Origin: Verrucomicrobiia bacterium
Lineage (GTDB): Bacteria > Verrucomicrobiota > Verrucomicrobiia > Palsa-1439
Reading direction: 5' to 3'
Length of the DNA: 36,647 nucleotides
Assembly: GCA_025056465.1 (NCBI GenBank)
Contig: JANWVU010000009.1
Location: 1 to 36,647, forward strand
Each line of letters begins with the position of its first letter. Positions within the stretch are counted from its first letter, which is position 1. A program made the translations under genes and the position numbers. The notes below the pieces were generated by a model. The model worked only from the letters and a program-made list of their open reading frames with translations, was not told where the DNA came from and did not search any database. Below are positions 7,780-20,583 of this stretch, piece by piece.

Positions 7780-8568
7780 GGTCAGTTCCGAGGTCGCGCG
7801 ACGACGTCGCCGCTCCAGCAACCATGCGACCCACACACACGCCTCATACAGCAGATACATTGGCCCCGCCAACAGCGCCATGTTGAACGGGTCGGTTGTC
7901 GGGGTCACAAACGCGGACACCACCAAAATCGCAACCAGCACTTGAGGACGTTTCTGACGCAAAAATTCGTGCGTGACGATGCCCAACTTGGCGAGCACCA
8001 AGATGACCAACGGCAGTTCAAAACACAGTCCGAAGGCCAACAACATGTGCGTCACAAAGGCCACATAGTTATCAATGGTCCACTCCGACCGGATGCCGAG
8101 CCGTTCGTTGAAGTGAAGGAAAAACCGTAGTCCTGCCGGGACCACGACGAAATACGCCATCGCCGCCCCCAACAAAAACATACCGGCCCCCGCACTGAAT
8201 GCCGGCCACAACAGTCCGCGTTCCTGTCGGGTCAACGCCGGTAGGACGAACTGCCCGATAAAATACAGAATCAGCGGGCAGGCAACCACCAGCCCGGCAT
8301 ACAGCGCCAACCGCATCGCCAACGTGAACCCACCAGCCACCTCCAACGTGCGCAGATAGGCCGACGCATCGCCCGTGACGCGTTGCAACGGCCAAATCAC
8401 AAGCCGCAACAAGTCCGGCGCAAAAATAAAACAGCCAATCATCGCTACAGCGAGCGCCGCTAAAGACTTGATCAGTGTCCAGCGCAGTTCTTCGAGATGA
8501 ACTAGAAACGGCTGCACTAGCGGCGCGTCGGTCGAGTTGTCCGGCTCGCGTTCCGGCGCCGAGCTCAT
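7768..8568 (-). CDS. tatC: Twin-arginine translocase subunit TatC
   Basis: A 266-residue multi-spanning inner-membrane protein, the signal-peptide receptor of the Tat system that exports folded proteins. The diagnostic N-terminal motif is FLVHLEELRWTLIKSLAALA. About six hydrophobic helices follow, including LVVACPLILYFIGQFVLPAL and the conserved segment AFGLCFELPLVILVLAKLGIV. The ATG at 8568 is used; a GTG directly before it would add one residue. It lies 32 nt downstream of tatA and probably shares its transcript. No separate tatB is seen, which is usual for two-component TatAC systems. The 3' end overlaps the convergent Ppx-like gene by 12 bp. Confidence 0.95.
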   Translation of the reverse strand: MSSAPEREPDNSTDAPLVQPFLVHLEELRWTLIKSLAALAVAMIGCFIFAPDLLRLVIWPLQRVTGDASAYLRTLEVAGGFTLAMRLALYAGLVVACPLILYFIGQFVLPALTRQERGLLWPAFSAGAGMFLLGAAMAYFVVVPAGLRFFLHFNERLGIRSEWTIDNYVAFVTHMLLAFGLCFELPLVILVLAKLGIVTHEFLRQKRPQVLVAILVVSAFVTPTTDPFNMALLAGPMYLLYEACVWVAWLLERRRRRATSELTSVP

Positions 8569-12935: not shown

Positions 12936-13886
12936 TTATACAACTTCGCGCACCGCCGTCAAAGTCTTTCTACCACAACACTCCGCGCAACGATCCATCA
13001 ACGCCTCCCGCATCGCCCATCCTGCCGCGCTACTCGCCAACCACACCGCCCCAACCACCGGCGGCCACCGCGGAGCTCGCATCTCCACCGCGGGCAAGCG
13101 CGCGCGTAACGCCGTCGCAAACAAATCACGATAAAACGCCGACCGCTCCAACCACGACCCTGCATAACTCACCGGCCCCGTCTCCATTCCCAACCGCACC
13201 GCCACCGCCGCCGTCGCTTCCGCCAACGCGTCTGCCTGTTGTTGCACAACCTCGCGCGCCACCGCGTCGCCCTGCTCCGCCAACTGCACCACCACGCGCG
13301 CCAATCGAGCGGTCCCCACTCGTGACAACCTCTCCCAACTCGCCGGCTCGGGCAGCGCATCCGCCAACGCGGTCGCCGGCCCGCGCCCGTCCCGCGCACG
13401 CCACACCGCTGCTTGCGCCGCCACCGCCAGAGCATACCCGCCGCCCTGATTGTCCGATTCCCACGACCAACCACCGGCACGCCATGTTTCGCCCACCGCG
13501 TTCACCCCAAAACACGCCGCGCCTGTCCCCGCAATCGCAATCACTCCCGGTTGCCCGGCCAACGCCCCAGCCCACGCCACGCGCAAATCATGATCCACCA
13601 CAACCCGCTCCGCCCAACCCAACGCCATCACCATCTCCTGAATCCGCTTCTGCGTCTCGCCTTGTGCCGCACCCGCCACGCCGAGCATCGCGACCTTCGC
13701 ACCCCAATCCCGACCCAAAGCCGTCAGCGTCTCTCGCACACCATCCCAACCGATCGTCCGAAAATTCATCCCCCCGGCTTCCCGCCACGCCACCAACTCA
13801 CCTTCGCTCGTCACGGCCGCCAACCGTGTGCGTGTCCCACCGCCATCCAATCCCAACACAATGCGCCCCACCCTCGCCTCACTCAT
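12936..13886 (-). CDS. BadF/BadG/BcrA/BcrD-type ATPase, GlcNAc-kinase-like
   Basis: A 316-residue actin-fold (ASKHA) ATPase. The phosphate-1 motif is LGLDGGGTRTRLAAV, and a second phosphate loop, VIAIAGTGAACFGVN, occurs near residue 120. Between them are GMNFRTIGWDGVRETL and the MLGVAGAAQ segment typical of N-acetylglucosamine kinases. The ending GAVWLA is also family-like. The probable reaction is ATP-dependent phosphorylation of an amino sugar, possibly in wall recycling; the substrate is not proven. The ATG at 13886 overlaps the upstream prepilin-like gene by 8 nt, and the stop lies 48 nt before tolQ. Its place just ahead of Tol-Pal fits, but does not prove, a wall-metabolism role. Confidence 0.82.
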   Translation of the reverse strand: MSEARVGRIVLGLDGGGTRTRLAAVTSEGELVAWREAGGMNFRTIGWDGVRETLTALGRDWGAKVAMLGVAGAAQGETQKRIQEMVMALGWAERVVVDHDLRVAWAGALAGQPGVIAIAGTGAACFGVNAVGETWRAGGWSWESDNQGGGYALAVAAQAAVWRARDGRGPATALADALPEPASWERLSRVGTARLARVVVQLAEQGDAVAREVVQQQADALAEATAAVAVRLGMETGPVSYAGSWLERSAFYRDLFATALRARLPAVEMRAPRWPPVVGAVWLASSAAGWAMREALMDRCAECCGRKTLTAVREVV

Positions 13887-14490
13887 CGTCAATCCACCCC
13901 CACCCATTCGTCATCGTCACATTCCAGCCGCTCGGTGCCGAACGAAATTGCACCGCGCCATCGCTGCGCAAGGCATTCACCCCAGCGGCGTGATTCGGGA
14001 AATAACCCGACGGTCCCAACCAATCCGTCACCAACACCCGCAACTCCCGATCCAACCGGCTCGGCGCCCCTTGCGACGGACTCCGACCCCAATACGCACA
14101 CGCCGTAATCTGACCCGCGATCCCCAAATTCTGAATGCCGGTATCCCAATCGTGCGGCGGAAATTCGCGACCCGACGGACAATAAAACACGCGCGCTACC
14201 GGCCACCCACCGGCATCGGCCACAACCCGCCCGTACAACACATACCGCGCCCCATCCCACAACAAGTAACCCGGATAATCCTCCACCGGCAGCCTCTCAT
14301 ACCGGTCGTAATAAAGACACACCAACTGCCCGACTTGTCGGAGATTGCCCGCGCAGACAACCTGTCGCGCTCGCTCGCGTGCACGGGCCAACGCCGGTAG
14401 CAGCAACGCCGCCACCAAACCCAACACCGCCCCTACAGTGATCAACTCCACGAGCGAGAAGCCCGCCCTCCTTGCCGCGCAGCTTCTCAC
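13879..14490 (-). CDS. Prepilin-like protein with H-X9-DG C-terminus
   Basis: A 203-residue protein with a type IV prepilin/pseudopilin N-terminus: a short basic leader, then GFSLVELITVGAVLGLVAAL, with cleavage expected after the Gly. A globular domain with GNLRQVGQLVCLYYDRY ends in NHAAGVNALRSDGAVQF, which has a His followed by nine residues and Asp-Gly. This H-X9-DG element is known from large prepilin-like families in Planctomycetes and Verrucomicrobia; their function is poorly known. The start codon is GTG with a -10-like TACAAA 7 nt upstream and no Shine-Dalgarno sequence. No pilus assembly genes are nearby, so a pilus role is uncertain. Confidence 0.85.
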   Translation of the reverse strand: MRSCAARRAGFSLVELITVGAVLGLVAALLLPALARARERARQVVCAGNLRQVGQLVCLYYDRYERLPVEDYPGYLLWDGARYVLYGRVVADAGGWPVARVFYCPSGREFPPHDWDTGIQNLGIAGQITACAYWGRSPSQGAPSRLDRELRVLVTDWLGPSGYFPNHAAGVNALRSDGAVQFRSAPSGWNVTMTNGWGWIDDE

Positions 14491-14627: not shown

Positions 14628-15590
14628 ATGTCCCCGCAGAACGAGCTCCCATTGCAGGCCAGTCGAAGGCAGCTCATGGCCCAAATCACCGAGCGAATCC
14701 TCGACTTGCTTAACCAGAACATCGTGCCGTGGAAAATACCGTGGTCAGGTGCCCTCCCATACAATTACATCTCCCGCCGCCCCTATGGGGTCTTAAACGC
14801 AACCCTCCTCCTCGCTACGCCCTTCACCCAGCGTGCTTGGCTCACGCAGCGACAAGTCGAGCGACGCGGTGCCAGCATCCTCCCCCAACAAAAGCCAACG
14901 ACCATCTACTCATTTTTTCCGAACACCTGCAGGAGGACCAACCCGCAGGGCGAACCTAGTTACCCAGTCGAATTGCGTGTCCGCAAATACCAAGTTTGGA
15001 ACATTCAGCAAACGACCTTGCCTCCACCCAAAAACAAAATCACTCCTAGACCGATCCACACAGCCGAAGCCATCGTGCAAAACATGCCCAAACGTCCAGC
15101 GATTCACCAGCACCCCTTGGCCGCCTACTACCGCCCGCTGACCGACGAAGTTTATGTCCCGCCCCCAGACGCATTTCCAATCGCCGAGGAATACTACAGC
15201 ACACTTTTCCACGAGCTGGTCCACGCCACCGGCCATCCCTCCCGGCTCAAACGCAAATCGCTTACGGTGCTCGCAAGTTTCGGTTCACACGCCTACAGCC
15301 AAGAAGAGCTCGTTGCCGAACTAGGGAGCGCCTACCTCTGCGCCATCGCAGGGATTGAGCGTGCAACCCTCCAAAATTCCGTCGCCTACATCCAGAGTTG
15401 GTATCGCGTTCTGAAAAACGATCCGTATATCTTCCCCATCGCGGCAGCCCACGCCCAACGAGCATCTCAATTCATCCTCGGCCGTCTCCCGCATGATCCA
15501 CCGGCTGATCCCGACGCTGCCACCACATCAACACCTCCTCACCGACTCGTCCCGGCCACGAACGCGGACGCTCTTCCCGCAACAGCCTGA
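14628..15590 (+). CDS. ArdC-like antirestriction protein (ssDNA-binding + zinc peptidase)
   Basis: A 320-residue protein resembling ArdC/TraC. The N-terminal DUF1738-like ssDNA-binding domain (about 1-105) has ITERILDLLNQNIVPWKIPW, a region ending RRPYGVLNATLLL, and WLTQRQVERRGASI. The C-terminal metallopeptidase domain has the zinc motif TLFHELVHATGHPSRLKR (HELVH) and the further glutamates of QEELVAELGSAYL. Plasmid ArdC proteins protect incoming DNA against restriction. Here no conjugation, replication or integrase gene is visible. The last 40 or so residues are low-complexity and overlap the convergent methyltransferase gene by 119 bp. No ribosome-binding site is visible. The isolated context suggests transfer, but this is inference. 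Confidence 0.85.
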   Translation: MSPQNELPLQASRRQLMAQITERILDLLNQNIVPWKIPWSGALPYNYISRRPYGVLNATLLLATPFTQRAWLTQRQVERRGASILPQQKPTTIYSFFPNTCRRTNPQGEPSYPVELRVRKYQVWNIQQTTLPPPKNKITPRPIHTAEAIVQNMPKRPAIHQHPLAAYYRPLTDEVYVPPPDAFPIAEEYYSTLFHELVHATGHPSRLKRKSLTVLASFGSHAYSQEELVAELGSAYLCAIAGIERATLQNSVAYIQSWYRVLKNDPYIFPIAAAHAQRASQFILGRLPHDPPADPDAATTSTPPHRLVPATNADALPATA

Positions 15591-16168: not shown

Positions 16169-17245
16169 GTGCTCGCCCTGCTCATACCGGTCGGCTCCGA
16201 CCACGACCGCGCCCGACCCGCGGTGGCGACCTTGTCGCTCATTGCGCTGAACATCATCATCTACCTCCTCACCAGCGCCCTCGACTCCGACGCCATCGCA
16301 CGCCAACTCGGTTTCGTCGCCGCCGCACCGCAACCTCACCAGTTCATTACGCACATGTTCCTTCACCTCGCTTGGCCGAAAAATCCCGACGCCGATTGGA
16401 TCATGCACCTCAACAGCGTCCTACACATCGGCGGCAACATGGCCTACCTTTGGTTCGCCGGTAGCGATTTGGAAGATGCGCTCGGCTCGCTCAAATTCCT
16501 CCTCGCCTACTTCCTCGGCGGCATCGCCTCCGCGTTGCTGTTCTGGGCCACCGCCGTCGCTGGTCGTTTCCCGAATCTTGACGAACCCGCTATTGGTGCC
16601 TCGGGCGCAGTCTCCGCGTTGCTCGGACTCTATCTCGTACGCTTCCCCCGATTCAAAATCCGCATCTGGTACGCGGGATTCATCCCGGTACCCTTGATCA
16701 TGCGACAAGGTATCGCGCGCATCAGTTCGTGGTTCTTCATCGGTTTCTGGATCGCGTTGCAACTATTCTTCGGTCTCCAAGCCCTGCGCGCCGGTGGCGC
16801 GGAAGTGGCATATTGGGGTCACATCGGCGGATTTCTCCTCGGGTTGGCTTACGGAACTGCCACTCATCAGTGGCGCGCTGGCCAGCAGGAGTTCTTGTTC
16901 AAGGAAGCCGAACACTTCTTCTACAAACAAAAATGGTTCCCCGCGATGGAGGCCTACCAATGTCTCGCCCAACGATACCCGCGCTTCGTCGAAGCCTACC
17001 TCAAATGGGCGTTGTGCTGGGAATGTGCCGGCCATCCCCAGCGCGCGGAAAAAGTGCTGTTCGACGCCCTTCAAACCTGTCGCGCCAACGGTTGGGAGTC
17101 GGAAGCCGACCGGCTCCAGGCCGAACTCCAACAACTCGGCGCGCTCCGCGCTGCTTCACCCACTCAACCACCGGCAGCACCCGCCCCCGCCACTCCCAAT
17201 CTCATGTTCCGTCGCCGCTTCAAGTGGGAGAAGGACAACGCATGA
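16169..17245 (+). CDS. Rhomboid-family intramembrane serine protease with C-terminal TPR-like region
   Basis: A 358-residue polytopic membrane protein. The first helix is VATLSLIALNIIIYLLTSAL. Rhomboid motifs follow in order: HIGGNMAYLWFAG (Asn90, oxyanion site), AIGASGAVSALLGLYL (catalytic Ser145) and AYWGHIGGFLLGLAYG (catalytic His218). It should therefore be an active intramembrane protease. After the membrane domain, residues of about 235-330 form a helical, TPR-like segment (KQKWFPAMEAYQCLAQRYP, then AYLKWALCWECAGHPQRAE). The GTG start is preceded by a -10-like TATAGC at 8 nt. The stop overlaps the next gene by ATGA, so the two are translationally coupled. Confidence 0.9.
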   Translation: MLALLIPVGSDHDRARPAVATLSLIALNIIIYLLTSALDSDAIARQLGFVAAAPQPHQFITHMFLHLAWPKNPDADWIMHLNSVLHIGGNMAYLWFAGSDLEDALGSLKFLLAYFLGGIASALLFWATAVAGRFPNLDEPAIGASGAVSALLGLYLVRFPRFKIRIWYAGFIPVPLIMRQGIARISSWFFIGFWIALQLFFGLQALRAGGAEVAYWGHIGGFLLGLAYGTATHQWRAGQQEFLFKEAEHFFYKQKWFPAMEAYQCLAQRYPRFVEAYLKWALCWECAGHPQRAEKVLFDALQTCRANGWESEADRLQAELQQLGALRAASPTQPPAAPAPATPNLMFRRRFKWEKDNA

Positions 17246-18777
17246 CCACACCCGCCCAATCATTCATCCCCTGCGTTCATCATCCTGATCAACGCGCCAC
17301 GCACAATTGCATGAATTGCGGCAAACCACTCTGCATGTTTTGCGTCTCGGAACGCGGCTATTACTGCAGCGACACTTGCAAAGCCGCCGTCCAAGCGACC
17401 GAACCCGATGCGCCCCGCGACCAACGCCTCGACCAACTCGATGCTCAGTTGCAACGCAGCCGCGCCGTACTCACCACCCTCTGGCGCAAACTCGCGCTCG
17501 TGCTCGTCCTCATACTCGTCCTCGGAGCCGGTTGGCTCACCTACCGGTTGCTATTTGCGCCCCGCGGCAAAATCACCGTCGCTTTCCCCGTGGATTCCGC
17601 CATGGCCAGTTTCTTCGCTCAACCCCTCGATGCCGACACCGTTTTGGTCCGTGCCAACAATGAATTGTTTCGGCTCCGCCTGCGCACCCAAACCAAACTC
17701 TGGAGCGTGACGCTGCCGGAAGACGAATCCGGTAGCGTCGTGTCCGTTCATGGTTCCGAGATCCAAATCCGTTATCGCGACCGCGTGCAATCTCTCGATG
17801 CCCAAACAGGCACACCACTGCGCGAAGCCACCCGGCCTCCACAATCTCAGCATGAATGGAATCAACACACCATCACCATCCGCCCCGCCGCCCTCAAACC
17901 ACAGACGGAATCTCAGGAGGAACCCGAACTCACCGCCGGTGACCCCGAACAGTTTTCCGCCCGTCGCCTGTTCAACCTCGCTGGTGGCGAGCAACCCTCG
18001 GCACCCCCTCGCGAGTTTCAGGTGCGATTCAGCGGCGCAACCCCTGCCGAACTCACTCTCGCGTTTTCCGAGTGGCCGACTGTCTTCCCATTCGAGAAAT
18101 CGCTGGTCCTTGTCGGTGGTCGCCACCTCGCTGTCTTCGACCGCATCGGCGAACCCCGATGGCAACACCAACTCGACGCCGAGTTTGTCACGCTCACCGT
18201 CAACGACAACGCGCTTGCCGTCGCCACCCTGCAGAGCGTGACGTTGCTTGACCTGCATACCGGACAACAACGATGGCGCGCCACCGACCTCCAAACCGAA
18301 AACCTCACCCTCGCACCCGACGGATCCGTGTACGCTTTCGTCGTCCTGTCCTCCGAACAAGCCAAAGCTCACGAGAAACAATTTCGTGCCGCCCCCGTCG
18401 CGCCGCGCGGCTTGGGCATTACCGTGCGCGACGCGGTACCGGCCTTGCTCAAGCTCGATGCCCGCGACGGCTCCATCCGCTGGGGCGTCCGCAACATCGG
18501 CCAATACGTTCTGGTCACCGACGATTCGCTGTTCGTCGCCGACGACACCGACCGAGTCAACCTACTCGCCCCAGCCGGTATCATCGAAACCTACTACAGC
18601 ATCCGACAACTCAACCCGCGGACTGGTGCCGACCTCTGGCATATCATCGACAAGGGCAGCCTTGCCGATGCCCACCTCCTCGGTCGCTCGCCCCTGCTCG
18701 TCGTGTTGCCCCATCCGCCCGCCGGACGGATCAACCCCACCGGCAGCTACCGGCTCCAACTCGTCGAAACGAACTAG
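17242..18777 (+). CDS. B-box-like zinc finger/transmembrane/beta-propeller protein
   Basis: A 511-residue protein of unknown function. Residues 11-46 hold a Cys/His cluster (C11, H13, H14, C23, C26, C31, C34, C42, C46; includes CMNCGKPLCMFCVSERGYYC), resembling a B-box-type zinc finger. A coiled or helical stretch precedes one transmembrane helix (about 84-105, LALVLVLILVLGAGWLTYRL). The rest, about 400 residues, looks like a PQQ-type beta-propeller, with segments such as LFRLRLRTQTKLWSV, VTLLDLHTGQQRWRATD and ALLKLDARDGSIRWGV. The likely topology is zinc finger inside and propeller in the periplasm. It overlaps the rhomboid gene by ATGA, so it may be the protease's partner or substrate. Confidence 0.8.
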   Translation: MTTPAQSFIPCVHHPDQRATHNCMNCGKPLCMFCVSERGYYCSDTCKAAVQATEPDAPRDQRLDQLDAQLQRSRAVLTTLWRKLALVLVLILVLGAGWLTYRLLFAPRGKITVAFPVDSAMASFFAQPLDADTVLVRANNELFRLRLRTQTKLWSVTLPEDESGSVVSVHGSEIQIRYRDRVQSLDAQTGTPLREATRPPQSQHEWNQHTITIRPAALKPQTESQEEPELTAGDPEQFSARRLFNLAGGEQPSAPPREFQVRFSGATPAELTLAFSEWPTVFPFEKSLVLVGGRHLAVFDRIGEPRWQHQLDAEFVTLTVNDNALAVATLQSVTLLDLHTGQQRWRATDLQTENLTLAPDGSVYAFVVLSSEQAKAHEKQFRAAPVAPRGLGITVRDAVPALLKLDARDGSIRWGVRNIGQYVLVTDDSLFVADDTDRVNLLAPAGIIETYYSIRQLNPRTGADLWHIIDKGSLADAHLLGRSPLLVVLPHPPAGRINPTGSYRLQLVETN

Positions 18778-18825: not shown

Positions 18826-19809
18826 ATGCATCACAACCCCGACCCTTGTCTCGTCAACACCTTTGAAACACGACTTCACCAACTCGGCCGCGCGCCGCTC
18901 CGTCGCACCACCATCACCACCTTGCAAATCAACCTCGGCAAACGCTGCAACCAAACATGTCAGCACTGCCACGTCAACGCCGGCCCCGCTCGCACCGAGA
19001 TGATGACCCGCCAAACTGCCGACCGCATTCTCGATTGGCTCGCCCACACCACCATCCCCACCGTTGACCTCACCGGTGGCGCGCCCGAACTCAACCCCAA
19101 CTTCCGCTACCTCGTCGAATCCTGCCGCACGCTCCGCCGCCATGTCATTGACCGCTGCAACCTCACCGTCCTATTCGAGCCCGGCCAGCACGACCTCGCG
19201 GAGTTCCTCGCCGACAACCGCGTCGAAATCATCGCCTCACTCCCCTGTTACCTCCCCAACAACGTTGACGCCCAACGCGGCGACGGTGTCTTCGACAAAA
19301 GCATCCGCGCCCTCCAAATCCTCAACGCACTCGGCTACGGCACGGCACCCGACCTCCCGCTCAATCTCGTCTACAACCCGCTCGGCGACACCCTGCCGCC
19401 GCAACAAGCACAATTGGAAGCCGACTACCGGCATCACTTGCGTGCCCACTACGGTATCGTCTTCAACCACCTCTACACGCTCACCAACATGCCCATCGCG
19501 CGATTCGCTGCGTGGCTTCACCGCGAAGGCCGGTACGATTCCTATCTCCAACTGCTCATCGCCAAGTTCAACCCGGCAACCCTCGACCATCTCATGTGCC
19601 GCACCACGCTCTCCATCGGCTGGCGCGGCGAAGTCTACGACTGCGACTTCAACCAAATGCTCGACCTCCGATGGTGCAACCACCAACCGCTCTACCTCTG
19701 GGACATCACCGTCGCCGACACCGAAAACCGTCCCATCATCACCGGCCCGCACTGCTTCGGTTGCACGGCCGGCTGCGGCAGCAGTTGCACCGGCGCACTC
19801 ACCTCGTGA
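18826..19809 (+). CDS. arsS: Arsenosugar biosynthesis radical SAM protein ArsS
   Basis: A 327-residue radical SAM enzyme. The N-terminal iron-sulfur motif CNQTCQHCHVNAGPART is the CxxxCxxC of the superfamily, followed by VDLTGGAPELNPNFRYLV. The C-terminal DUF3641-type domain contains CRTTLSIGWRGEVYDCDFNQ and a cysteine-rich end (HCFGCTAGCGSSCTGAL) likely to bind further clusters. ArsS is proposed to build the dimethylarsinoyl-deoxyribose core of arsenosugars from methylated arsenic and SAM. The next gene belongs to the family repeatedly found with arsS, which strengthens the call. The arsenic methyltransferase ArsM that normally supplies the substrate is not in the window. Confidence 0.92.
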   Translation: MHHNPDPCLVNTFETRLHQLGRAPLRRTTITTLQINLGKRCNQTCQHCHVNAGPARTEMMTRQTADRILDWLAHTTIPTVDLTGGAPELNPNFRYLVESCRTLRRHVIDRCNLTVLFEPGQHDLAEFLADNRVEIIASLPCYLPNNVDAQRGDGVFDKSIRALQILNALGYGTAPDLPLNLVYNPLGDTLPPQQAQLEADYRHHLRAHYGIVFNHLYTLTNMPIARFAAWLHREGRYDSYLQLLIAKFNPATLDHLMCRTTLSIGWRGEVYDCDFNQMLDLRWCNHQPLYLWDITVADTENRPIITGPHCFGCTAGCGSSCTGALTS

Positions 19810-19834
19810 CCGAAACCCATTCCCCGCGCGGGTG

Positions 19835-19876
19835 AATCCCCAATCTCCAATCTCAAATCTGAAATCACCAATCCCC
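19835..19876. repeat. Heptanucleotide tandem repeat (AATCNNN x6)
   Basis: Six consecutive 7-bp units all begin AATC and vary only in the last three bases: AATCCCC, AATCTCC, AATCTCA, AATCTGA, AATCACC, AATCCCC. They lie in the 138-bp gap between arsS and its partner gene. The form resembles the short tandemly repeated sequences known in cyanobacteria and other genomes. A CCCGCGCGGG palindrome (19823-19832) directly precedes the array. Confidence 0.8.
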
Positions 19877-19947
19877 ACTCATCCGGCATGACCGCCTCCG
19901 CCCCGCCTACCGGCACGTAGCACCCACGCAAAATCCATCTCATCCCC

Positions 19948-20583
19948 ATGACCGCTCCGCACCACGCACCTGAGCAGCTGGTGTTGATGGCTCGATACCC
20001 AACCCCGGGCAAAGTCAAAACGCGACTCGCCACCGAAATCGGCCCGCACCGCGCCGCGACGCTCTACCGACGCTGGCTCCGTCAGCTCGCCCGCGAATTT
20101 TCCCACGCACCCTTCCACGTCGAATGGCGTTTCACCCCGTCGCGCGCACCCTTCCGCCGAGTCACCCGCTGCCCCGGCGCCGCCTACCGGCCCCAACCAC
20201 CCGGCAACCTCGGCCACCGGCTCACCACCATCGTCGCCGACTCTTTCGCCGCAGGCTACCGGCGGGTCATCGTTATCGGTACCGATTGTCCGCTCATGAC
20301 TCGCACAACCATCATGCGCGCCTTCCAACTGCTCCACCGCTATCCGGTTGTCATCCAACCCACCGACGACGGCGGCTATGCGCTCGTCGGGTTGACCGCG
20401 CCATTCGATCTGTTCCGTAACATCGCGTGGAGCACCGATCGCGTCATGGAACAAACCCGACAACGACTCAGCCAGCTCAACCTCTCATGGCGTGAGTTGC
20501 CGAGCACCTTCGACATCGACACCCGTGCCGACCTCGATCGCTGGCGCGCGCTTCAACGCAGTCTCAACCGCTCCACCAGATAA
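19948..20583 (+). CDS. TIGR04282-family arsenosugar biosynthesis glycosyltransferase
   Basis: A 211-residue nucleotide-sugar-transferase-like protein (DUF2064, GT-A fold). Diagnostic motifs are LVLMARYPTPGKVKTRLATEIG, trimmed here to its core PTPGKVKTRL, then VIVIGTDCPLMT with the metal-binding Asp, and VIQPTDDGGYALVGL. The family is named for its frequent pairing with ArsS and is presumed to act in late arsenosugar assembly; its exact reaction is not established. The ATG at 19948 gives the normal short N-terminus. The last 31 bp overlap the convergent glcF gene. Confidence 0.88.
   Translation: MTAPHHAPEQLVLMARYPTPGKVKTRLATEIGPHRAATLYRRWLRQLAREFSHAPFHVEWRFTPSRAPFRRVTRCPGAAYRPQPPGNLGHRLTTIVADSFAAGYRRVIVIGTDCPLMTRTTIMRAFQLLHRYPVVIQPTDDGGYALVGLTAPFDLFRNIAWSTDRVMEQTRQRLSQLNLSWRELPSTFDIDTRADLDRWRALQRSLNRSTR

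Follow-up and report, generated by a model that had tools for sequence, protein, structure and literature searches.

We conclude that two overlapping genes, encoding a rhomboid protease and a zinc-finger, propeller-bearing membrane protein, form a real, lineage-restricted two-gene unit. They lie within a stretch of 36,647 nucleotides from a Verrucomicrobiia bacterium, analysed as a whole and called the window here. Both parts are members of known families, combined here in a new way; our literature search, with most subscription journals outside its coverage, found no paper that describes a rhomboid paired with a finger-propeller protein. As to function, we tentatively favour, at close to an even chance, a rhomboid that works in an inner-membrane complex with a dedicated non-substrate partner, which would recruit, gate or sense clients. 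The features are as follows, all on the forward strand.

16169 to 17245: rhomboid intramembrane serine protease, with six predicted membrane helices, a TPR-like tail and a conserved C-terminal peptide.
16865 to 17140: TPR-like helical tail of the rhomboid, approximately residues 233–324, predicted to be cytoplasmic, based on AF2 helices, PDB folds and conservation.
17195 to 17227: peptide PNLMFRxxFKW, rhomboid residues 343–353, a candidate docking motif that follows a variable Pro/Ala linker.
17242 to 18777: zinc-finger, single-helix, BamB-like propeller protein (the partner), the start of which overlaps the rhomboid stop by ATGA.
17272 to 17379: B-box-like finger of the partner, residues 11–46, with eight Cys/His (zf-B_box 23.1–26.2 bits; pLDDT 82–89).
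17479 to 17553: single transmembrane helix, approximately residues 80–104, based on hydropathy, a model helix (62–105) and charge bias; predicted N-in/C-out.
17590 to 18774: BamB/PQQ-like beta-propeller, approximately residues 117–511, with a conserved WGVRNIG, based on PQQ_2 and a BamB PDB fold.

The rhomboid comprises 358 amino acids, from a GTG start at 16169 to a stop at 17243–17245, and is an active-looking protease, as the earlier note on this DNA had held. Its score for the Pfam family Rhomboid (PF01694) is 91.6 bits, where the cut-off is 22.6, and S145 (GASGA), H218 (YWGHIGG) and H86/N90 of the HxxxN motif (HIGGN) are invariant in all four orthologues. No rhombosortase model was found for it among NCBIfam matches to E 10. 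Six membrane helices appear in a low-confidence model and three to four by hydropathy alone; the structure prediction (mean pLDDT 43) was used for the tail only. If there are six helices and the N-terminus is inside, the tail would lie in the cytoplasm, on the predicted side of the finger. The TPR-like nature of this tail is the weakest element claimed: five helices in the modest AF2 model (pLDDT 54–82 over approximately residues 260–330) and best PDB fold matches to TPR domains, none at E <0.1, speak for it, but the sequence match is weak (TPR_6 at E 1.1). Invariance among the four orthologues amounts to 65% in the core helices, 42% in the TPR-like tail, 17% in the linker (3 of 18 columns) and 82% in the C-terminal peptide (9 of 11), which, lying beyond the variable linker, looks like a candidate docking motif.

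The partner has 511 amino acids and starts with the ATG at 17242, giving the 4-nt overlap already recognised in the window; the program-listed open reading frame from 16729 is over-extended, 17242 being the likely start. The domains previously assigned to this protein, a B-box-like zinc finger, one membrane helix and a large PQQ-like propeller, are all upheld as predictions. All eight finger ligands (C11, H14, C23, C26, C31, C34, C42 and C46) are invariant in the four orthologues, and zf-B_box (PF00643) scored 23.1 bits by hmmscan against a cut-off of 24.1, and 26.2 bits, above the cut-off, in the genome search. A single hydrophobic segment at approximately residues 80–104 falls within the long helix of the model. 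The propeller matches PQQ_2 with 49.8 bits (cut-off 27.6), and its best PDB fold is BamB (E 1.6e-10; model mean pLDDT 60). It is not a BamB equivalog, scoring 27.1 bits with TIGR03300 against 285.2; BamB, with which it shares the propeller fold and the PQQ_2 domain, is an outer-membrane lipoprotein, whereas the partner has a finger and a predicted inner-membrane helix instead. Sequence searches gave no useful solved relatives. Invariance is 58% in the finger and 11–18% in the propeller, except for a patch at residues 405–420 (WGVRNIG) with 62%. Most members of the partner family, including those of genomes G004 and G010, begin with an additional module, a zinc-ribbon-like CxC..CxxC, which the copies of the window and of genome G007 do not have.

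The partner is likely a type II protein (N-in/C-out), with the finger in the cytoplasm and the propeller in the periplasm, because the finger has no signal peptide, a BamB-like domain follows the helix and the charges are biased. More Lys/Arg residues precede than follow the helix in 18 of 19 wider-family partner proteins, with one tie; for the four copies linked to a rhomboid, the surplus amounts to just one or two residues.

Rhomboid and partner stand side by side and in the same order in 4 of 11 genomes of the family, representing four genera, and both are missing from the remaining seven, so that every genome with the rhomboid orthologue has the partner next to it (4/4). These 11 genomes are identical to the 11-genome sample of the order; the window genome is 81% complete. 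If the two genes were independent, with four carriers each among 11 genomes, the chance of full coincidence would be 1 in 330, a figure that ignores phylogeny. Chance association is excluded, because both proteins and their adjacency are conserved in four genera. Identities among the orthologues are 60–78% for the rhomboid, with 61–78% in the genome search, and 34–47% for the partner over the alignment. The genes overlap in three of the four loci: the overlap measures 4 nt in both the window and G004, and 8 nt in G010. The G007 copy, the only one recovered by a scan of genome contigs, has a gap of approximately 70 nt between the genes, which contains a perfect hairpin; this hairpin (L033:4356-4427, gccgccgtcccggcggc...gccgccgggacggcggc) is GC-rich and REP-like. 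Outside the four family genomes, a search of 286 class genomes at E 1e-40 yielded no orthologue of the rhomboid, and a search of a 388-genome phylum sample at E 1e-30 yielded none besides the window copy.

The carriers G004 and G010 have congeners without the pair. For G010 and its congener G008, the flanks are 86–88% identical at the nucleotide level; in G010 (L035) the similarity stops at 8452 and resumes at approximately 11650, while the same flanks are approximately 60 nt apart in G008 (L116), the difference being precisely this gene pair. The pair was gained or lost as a whole, gain and loss not being distinguishable; in a second such comparison, of G005 with G004, synteny was lost on one side. 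The G+C content gave no sign of a recent foreign origin, that of the pair being 0.591 against 0.603 and 0.552 in the flanks of G010, and 0.612 against 0.612 in the window. The adjacency that the earlier note had proposed to look for across Verrucomicrobiota thus exists, with four of four paired, seven of seven with neither gene and a sister genome without both, but it is confined to one family.

The flanks of the four loci differ, and no third gene was common to them among the window genes tested. In the window, 18826–20583 is occupied by a gene for the arsenosugar radical SAM protein ArsS (TIGR04167, 456.8 bits) and, after it, one for an arsenosugar-type glycosyltransferase (TIGR04282), beginning 48 nt after the pair; these genes are absent beside the other three loci. 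An ArdC-like protein (ArdcN + MPTase-PolyVal), an antirestriction-type product usually encoded on mobile elements, is encoded at 14628–15590, approximately 0.6 kb upstream of the rhomboid, and a DUF1559/pseudopilin-like protein at 13879–14490 on the reverse strand. A distant relative of the latter (31%) lies at 14671–15108 in L035, approximately 3 kb from the pair. The window genome encodes four additional rhomboids (L001, L002, L003 and L005), one of which has a long N-terminal part and lies in an open frame of 604 aa. Since the genome has these four others, the partner would be dispensable for rhomboids in general, a point against the complex favoured below.

Homologues of the partner occur more widely, in 18 of the 286 class genomes with profile A2 and in 21 with profile A5. 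The wider homologues have the same domain order (profiles A2/A5) and form a second group, separate from the rhomboid-linked clade (100/100 support), which differs in its gene neighbour. A pseudopilin-like gene lies directly upstream in 14 of the 15 examined loci, at a spacing of −4 to 106 nt, and the two such genes tested belong to PF07963/TIGR02532; pseudopilin was also seen at three further wider-family loci and one contig end. None of the 15 loci has a rhomboid as direct neighbour of the partner. In G087 (L069), a different rhomboid lies on the opposite strand past the pseudopilin gene, at a distance of approximately 0.9 kb from the partner gene. The four members of the window clade all have a rhomboid in the upstream place instead of the pseudopilin, and G010 carries one partner of each type (L035, L036). 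The finger-helix-propeller protein is thus constant while its gene partner varies by clade. The class-wide unit consists of a pseudopilin-like gene and then a zinc-ribbon/B-box/membrane-helix/propeller gene, and was observed at L036:6790-9575, L065:7810-10536 and 12 further loci (L061-L064, L066-L072 and L074). Possibly, this pseudopilin-linked setting is the ancestral context of the window partner. Locus L079 of G001 contains two separate open reading frames (209 and 103 aa), each with a B-box-like finger and hydrophobic helices, and no rhomboid was found in its 3-kb stretch.

Zinc fingers have been reported in other bacterial rhomboids. Mycobacterium Rv0110 is a rhomboid with zf-B_box (PMC2989971), and zinc fingers are present in the Streptomyces rhomboid families A and B (PMC4467639). 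Likewise, a rhomboid on an Arthrobacter plasmid (L110) starts with a B-box-like finger (PF01694 99.7 bits; zf-B_box 22.9 bits) that is 36% identical to the finger of the window partner. In these actinobacterial proteins the finger sits on the protease chain, whereas here it sits on a separate propeller membrane protein encoded by an overlapping gene, and the window rhomboid has the TPR-like tail in its place. A comparable split occurs with another module on gammaproteobacterial replicons (L111:1040-2127, L112:1183-2274 and L113:1201-2286): in Salinivibrio and in Pseudoalteromonas HL-AS1, the rhomboid shares one chain with a zf-TFIIB zinc ribbon, which in Pseudoalteromonas CuT4-3 is annotated as a separate gene with a 4-nt overlap. 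The fusions are suggestive only, as similar fingers occur in rhomboid-free membrane proteins, such as the pseudopilin-linked family and those of G001.

The earlier note saw a protease-substrate or sensor pair. In the former, cleavage of the partner helix by the rhomboid would release a signal, either the propeller to the outside or the finger to the inside. The overlapping genes, the perfect co-occurrence, the single-pass nature of the partner and the small residues GAG near the helix end of the window copy are in line with this. However, the preferred substrates of bacterial rhomboids are type I/III proteins, whose N-terminus lies in the periplasm (PMC7232013), while the partner is predicted to be type II. 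Its helix is moreover the least conserved region of the protein (0 of 21 positions invariant; mean identity 25%), and the same architecture recurs in 15 relatives, none of them paired with a rhomboid gene. We therefore consider cleavage of the partner unlikely, and the reading as a typical substrate is weakened; a sensor or partner pair stays plausible. That the overlap merely sets expression levels and the proteins act separately, for instance in general envelope maintenance, would agree with the rhomboid-free, pseudopilin-linked wider family and with the B-box-like fingers that other bacterial membrane proteins also carry. Against this, both genes were gained or lost exactly together (G010 vs G008) and their order is kept in four genera despite unlike flanks, which makes simple co-expression a fairly unlikely explanation.

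The eight invariant Cys/His could also point to metal sensing, in which the finger would respond to cytoplasmic zinc and thereby control the rhomboid, yet B-box-like treble-clef fingers usually have a structural role and tight sites, and no metal transporter gene is common to the flanks of the four loci. The precedent for such switching is YqgP/GluP of Bacillus subtilis, a rhomboid with a cytosolic metal-binding domain and TPR repeats that also acts as FtsH adaptor; Mn/Zn, acting via the cytosolic domain, potentiates its cutting of MgtE (PMC7231995). The combination of rhomboid, TPR repeats and metal-binding cytosolic module recalls the pair. In YqgP, however, the metal domain is part of the rhomboid chain and has a fold unrelated to the B-box (PMC7231995), and the TPR domain is extracellular, whereas the window finger is on a separate protein and the tail of the window rhomboid is predicted to be cytoplasmic. 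Only some 18 residues precede the first helix of this rhomboid, leaving no N-terminal metal-binding domain of the YqgP type. Overall, metal sensing appears very improbable.

We favour a split finger-plus-rhomboid complex because of the predicted type II topology, the variable helix, the conserved finger, the unlinked wider family and the actinobacterial fusions. The strict pairing of the two genes, their overlap in three of four loci, their joint presence or absence, the invariant peptide at the rhomboid end and the gammaproteobacterial zinc-ribbon rhomboids also speak for it. In such a complex the partner would cross the membrane once, exposing the zinc finger to the cytoplasm and the BamB-like propeller to the periplasm. 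At the cytoplasmic face, both proteins would be joined by the finger, possibly with the TPR-like tail and the PNLMFRxxFKW peptide of the rhomboid, resembling the single-chain finger-rhomboids of Actinobacteria. The propeller would take in client envelope proteins or sense their assembly, and so govern which transmembrane helices get to the rhomboid. The probable task would be quality control, by removing or processing orphan single-pass envelope proteins. The bacterial rhomboids GlpG and Rhom7 remove unassembled (orphan) membrane proteins (PMC7232013), and differ in having no described dedicated finger-propeller partner. Together with YqgP (PMC7231995), they are precedents for quality-control rhomboids that have accessory domains. 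The far stronger conservation of the rhomboid than of the partner (60–78% against 34–47% identity) counts against a complex, being a difference that tight, obligate association would not call for.

More broadly, the finger-helix-propeller protein may be a swappable inner-membrane adaptor of Verrucomicrobia, serving pseudopilin-like proteins in one clade and recruited in another as a detached regulatory subunit of a rhomboid, a reading that we regard as possible but doubtful. If true, the pair would be a two-component rhomboid, with client selection placed on a separate propeller protein. If the partner is indeed non-enzymatic and genetically inseparable from the protease, it would offer a handle on substrate choice by bacterial rhomboids. 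The recurring link of zinc finger and rhomboid, fused in Actinobacteria, split here and, in Gammaproteobacteria, made with a different zinc ribbon, points to an accessory module in the cytoplasm that may be general.
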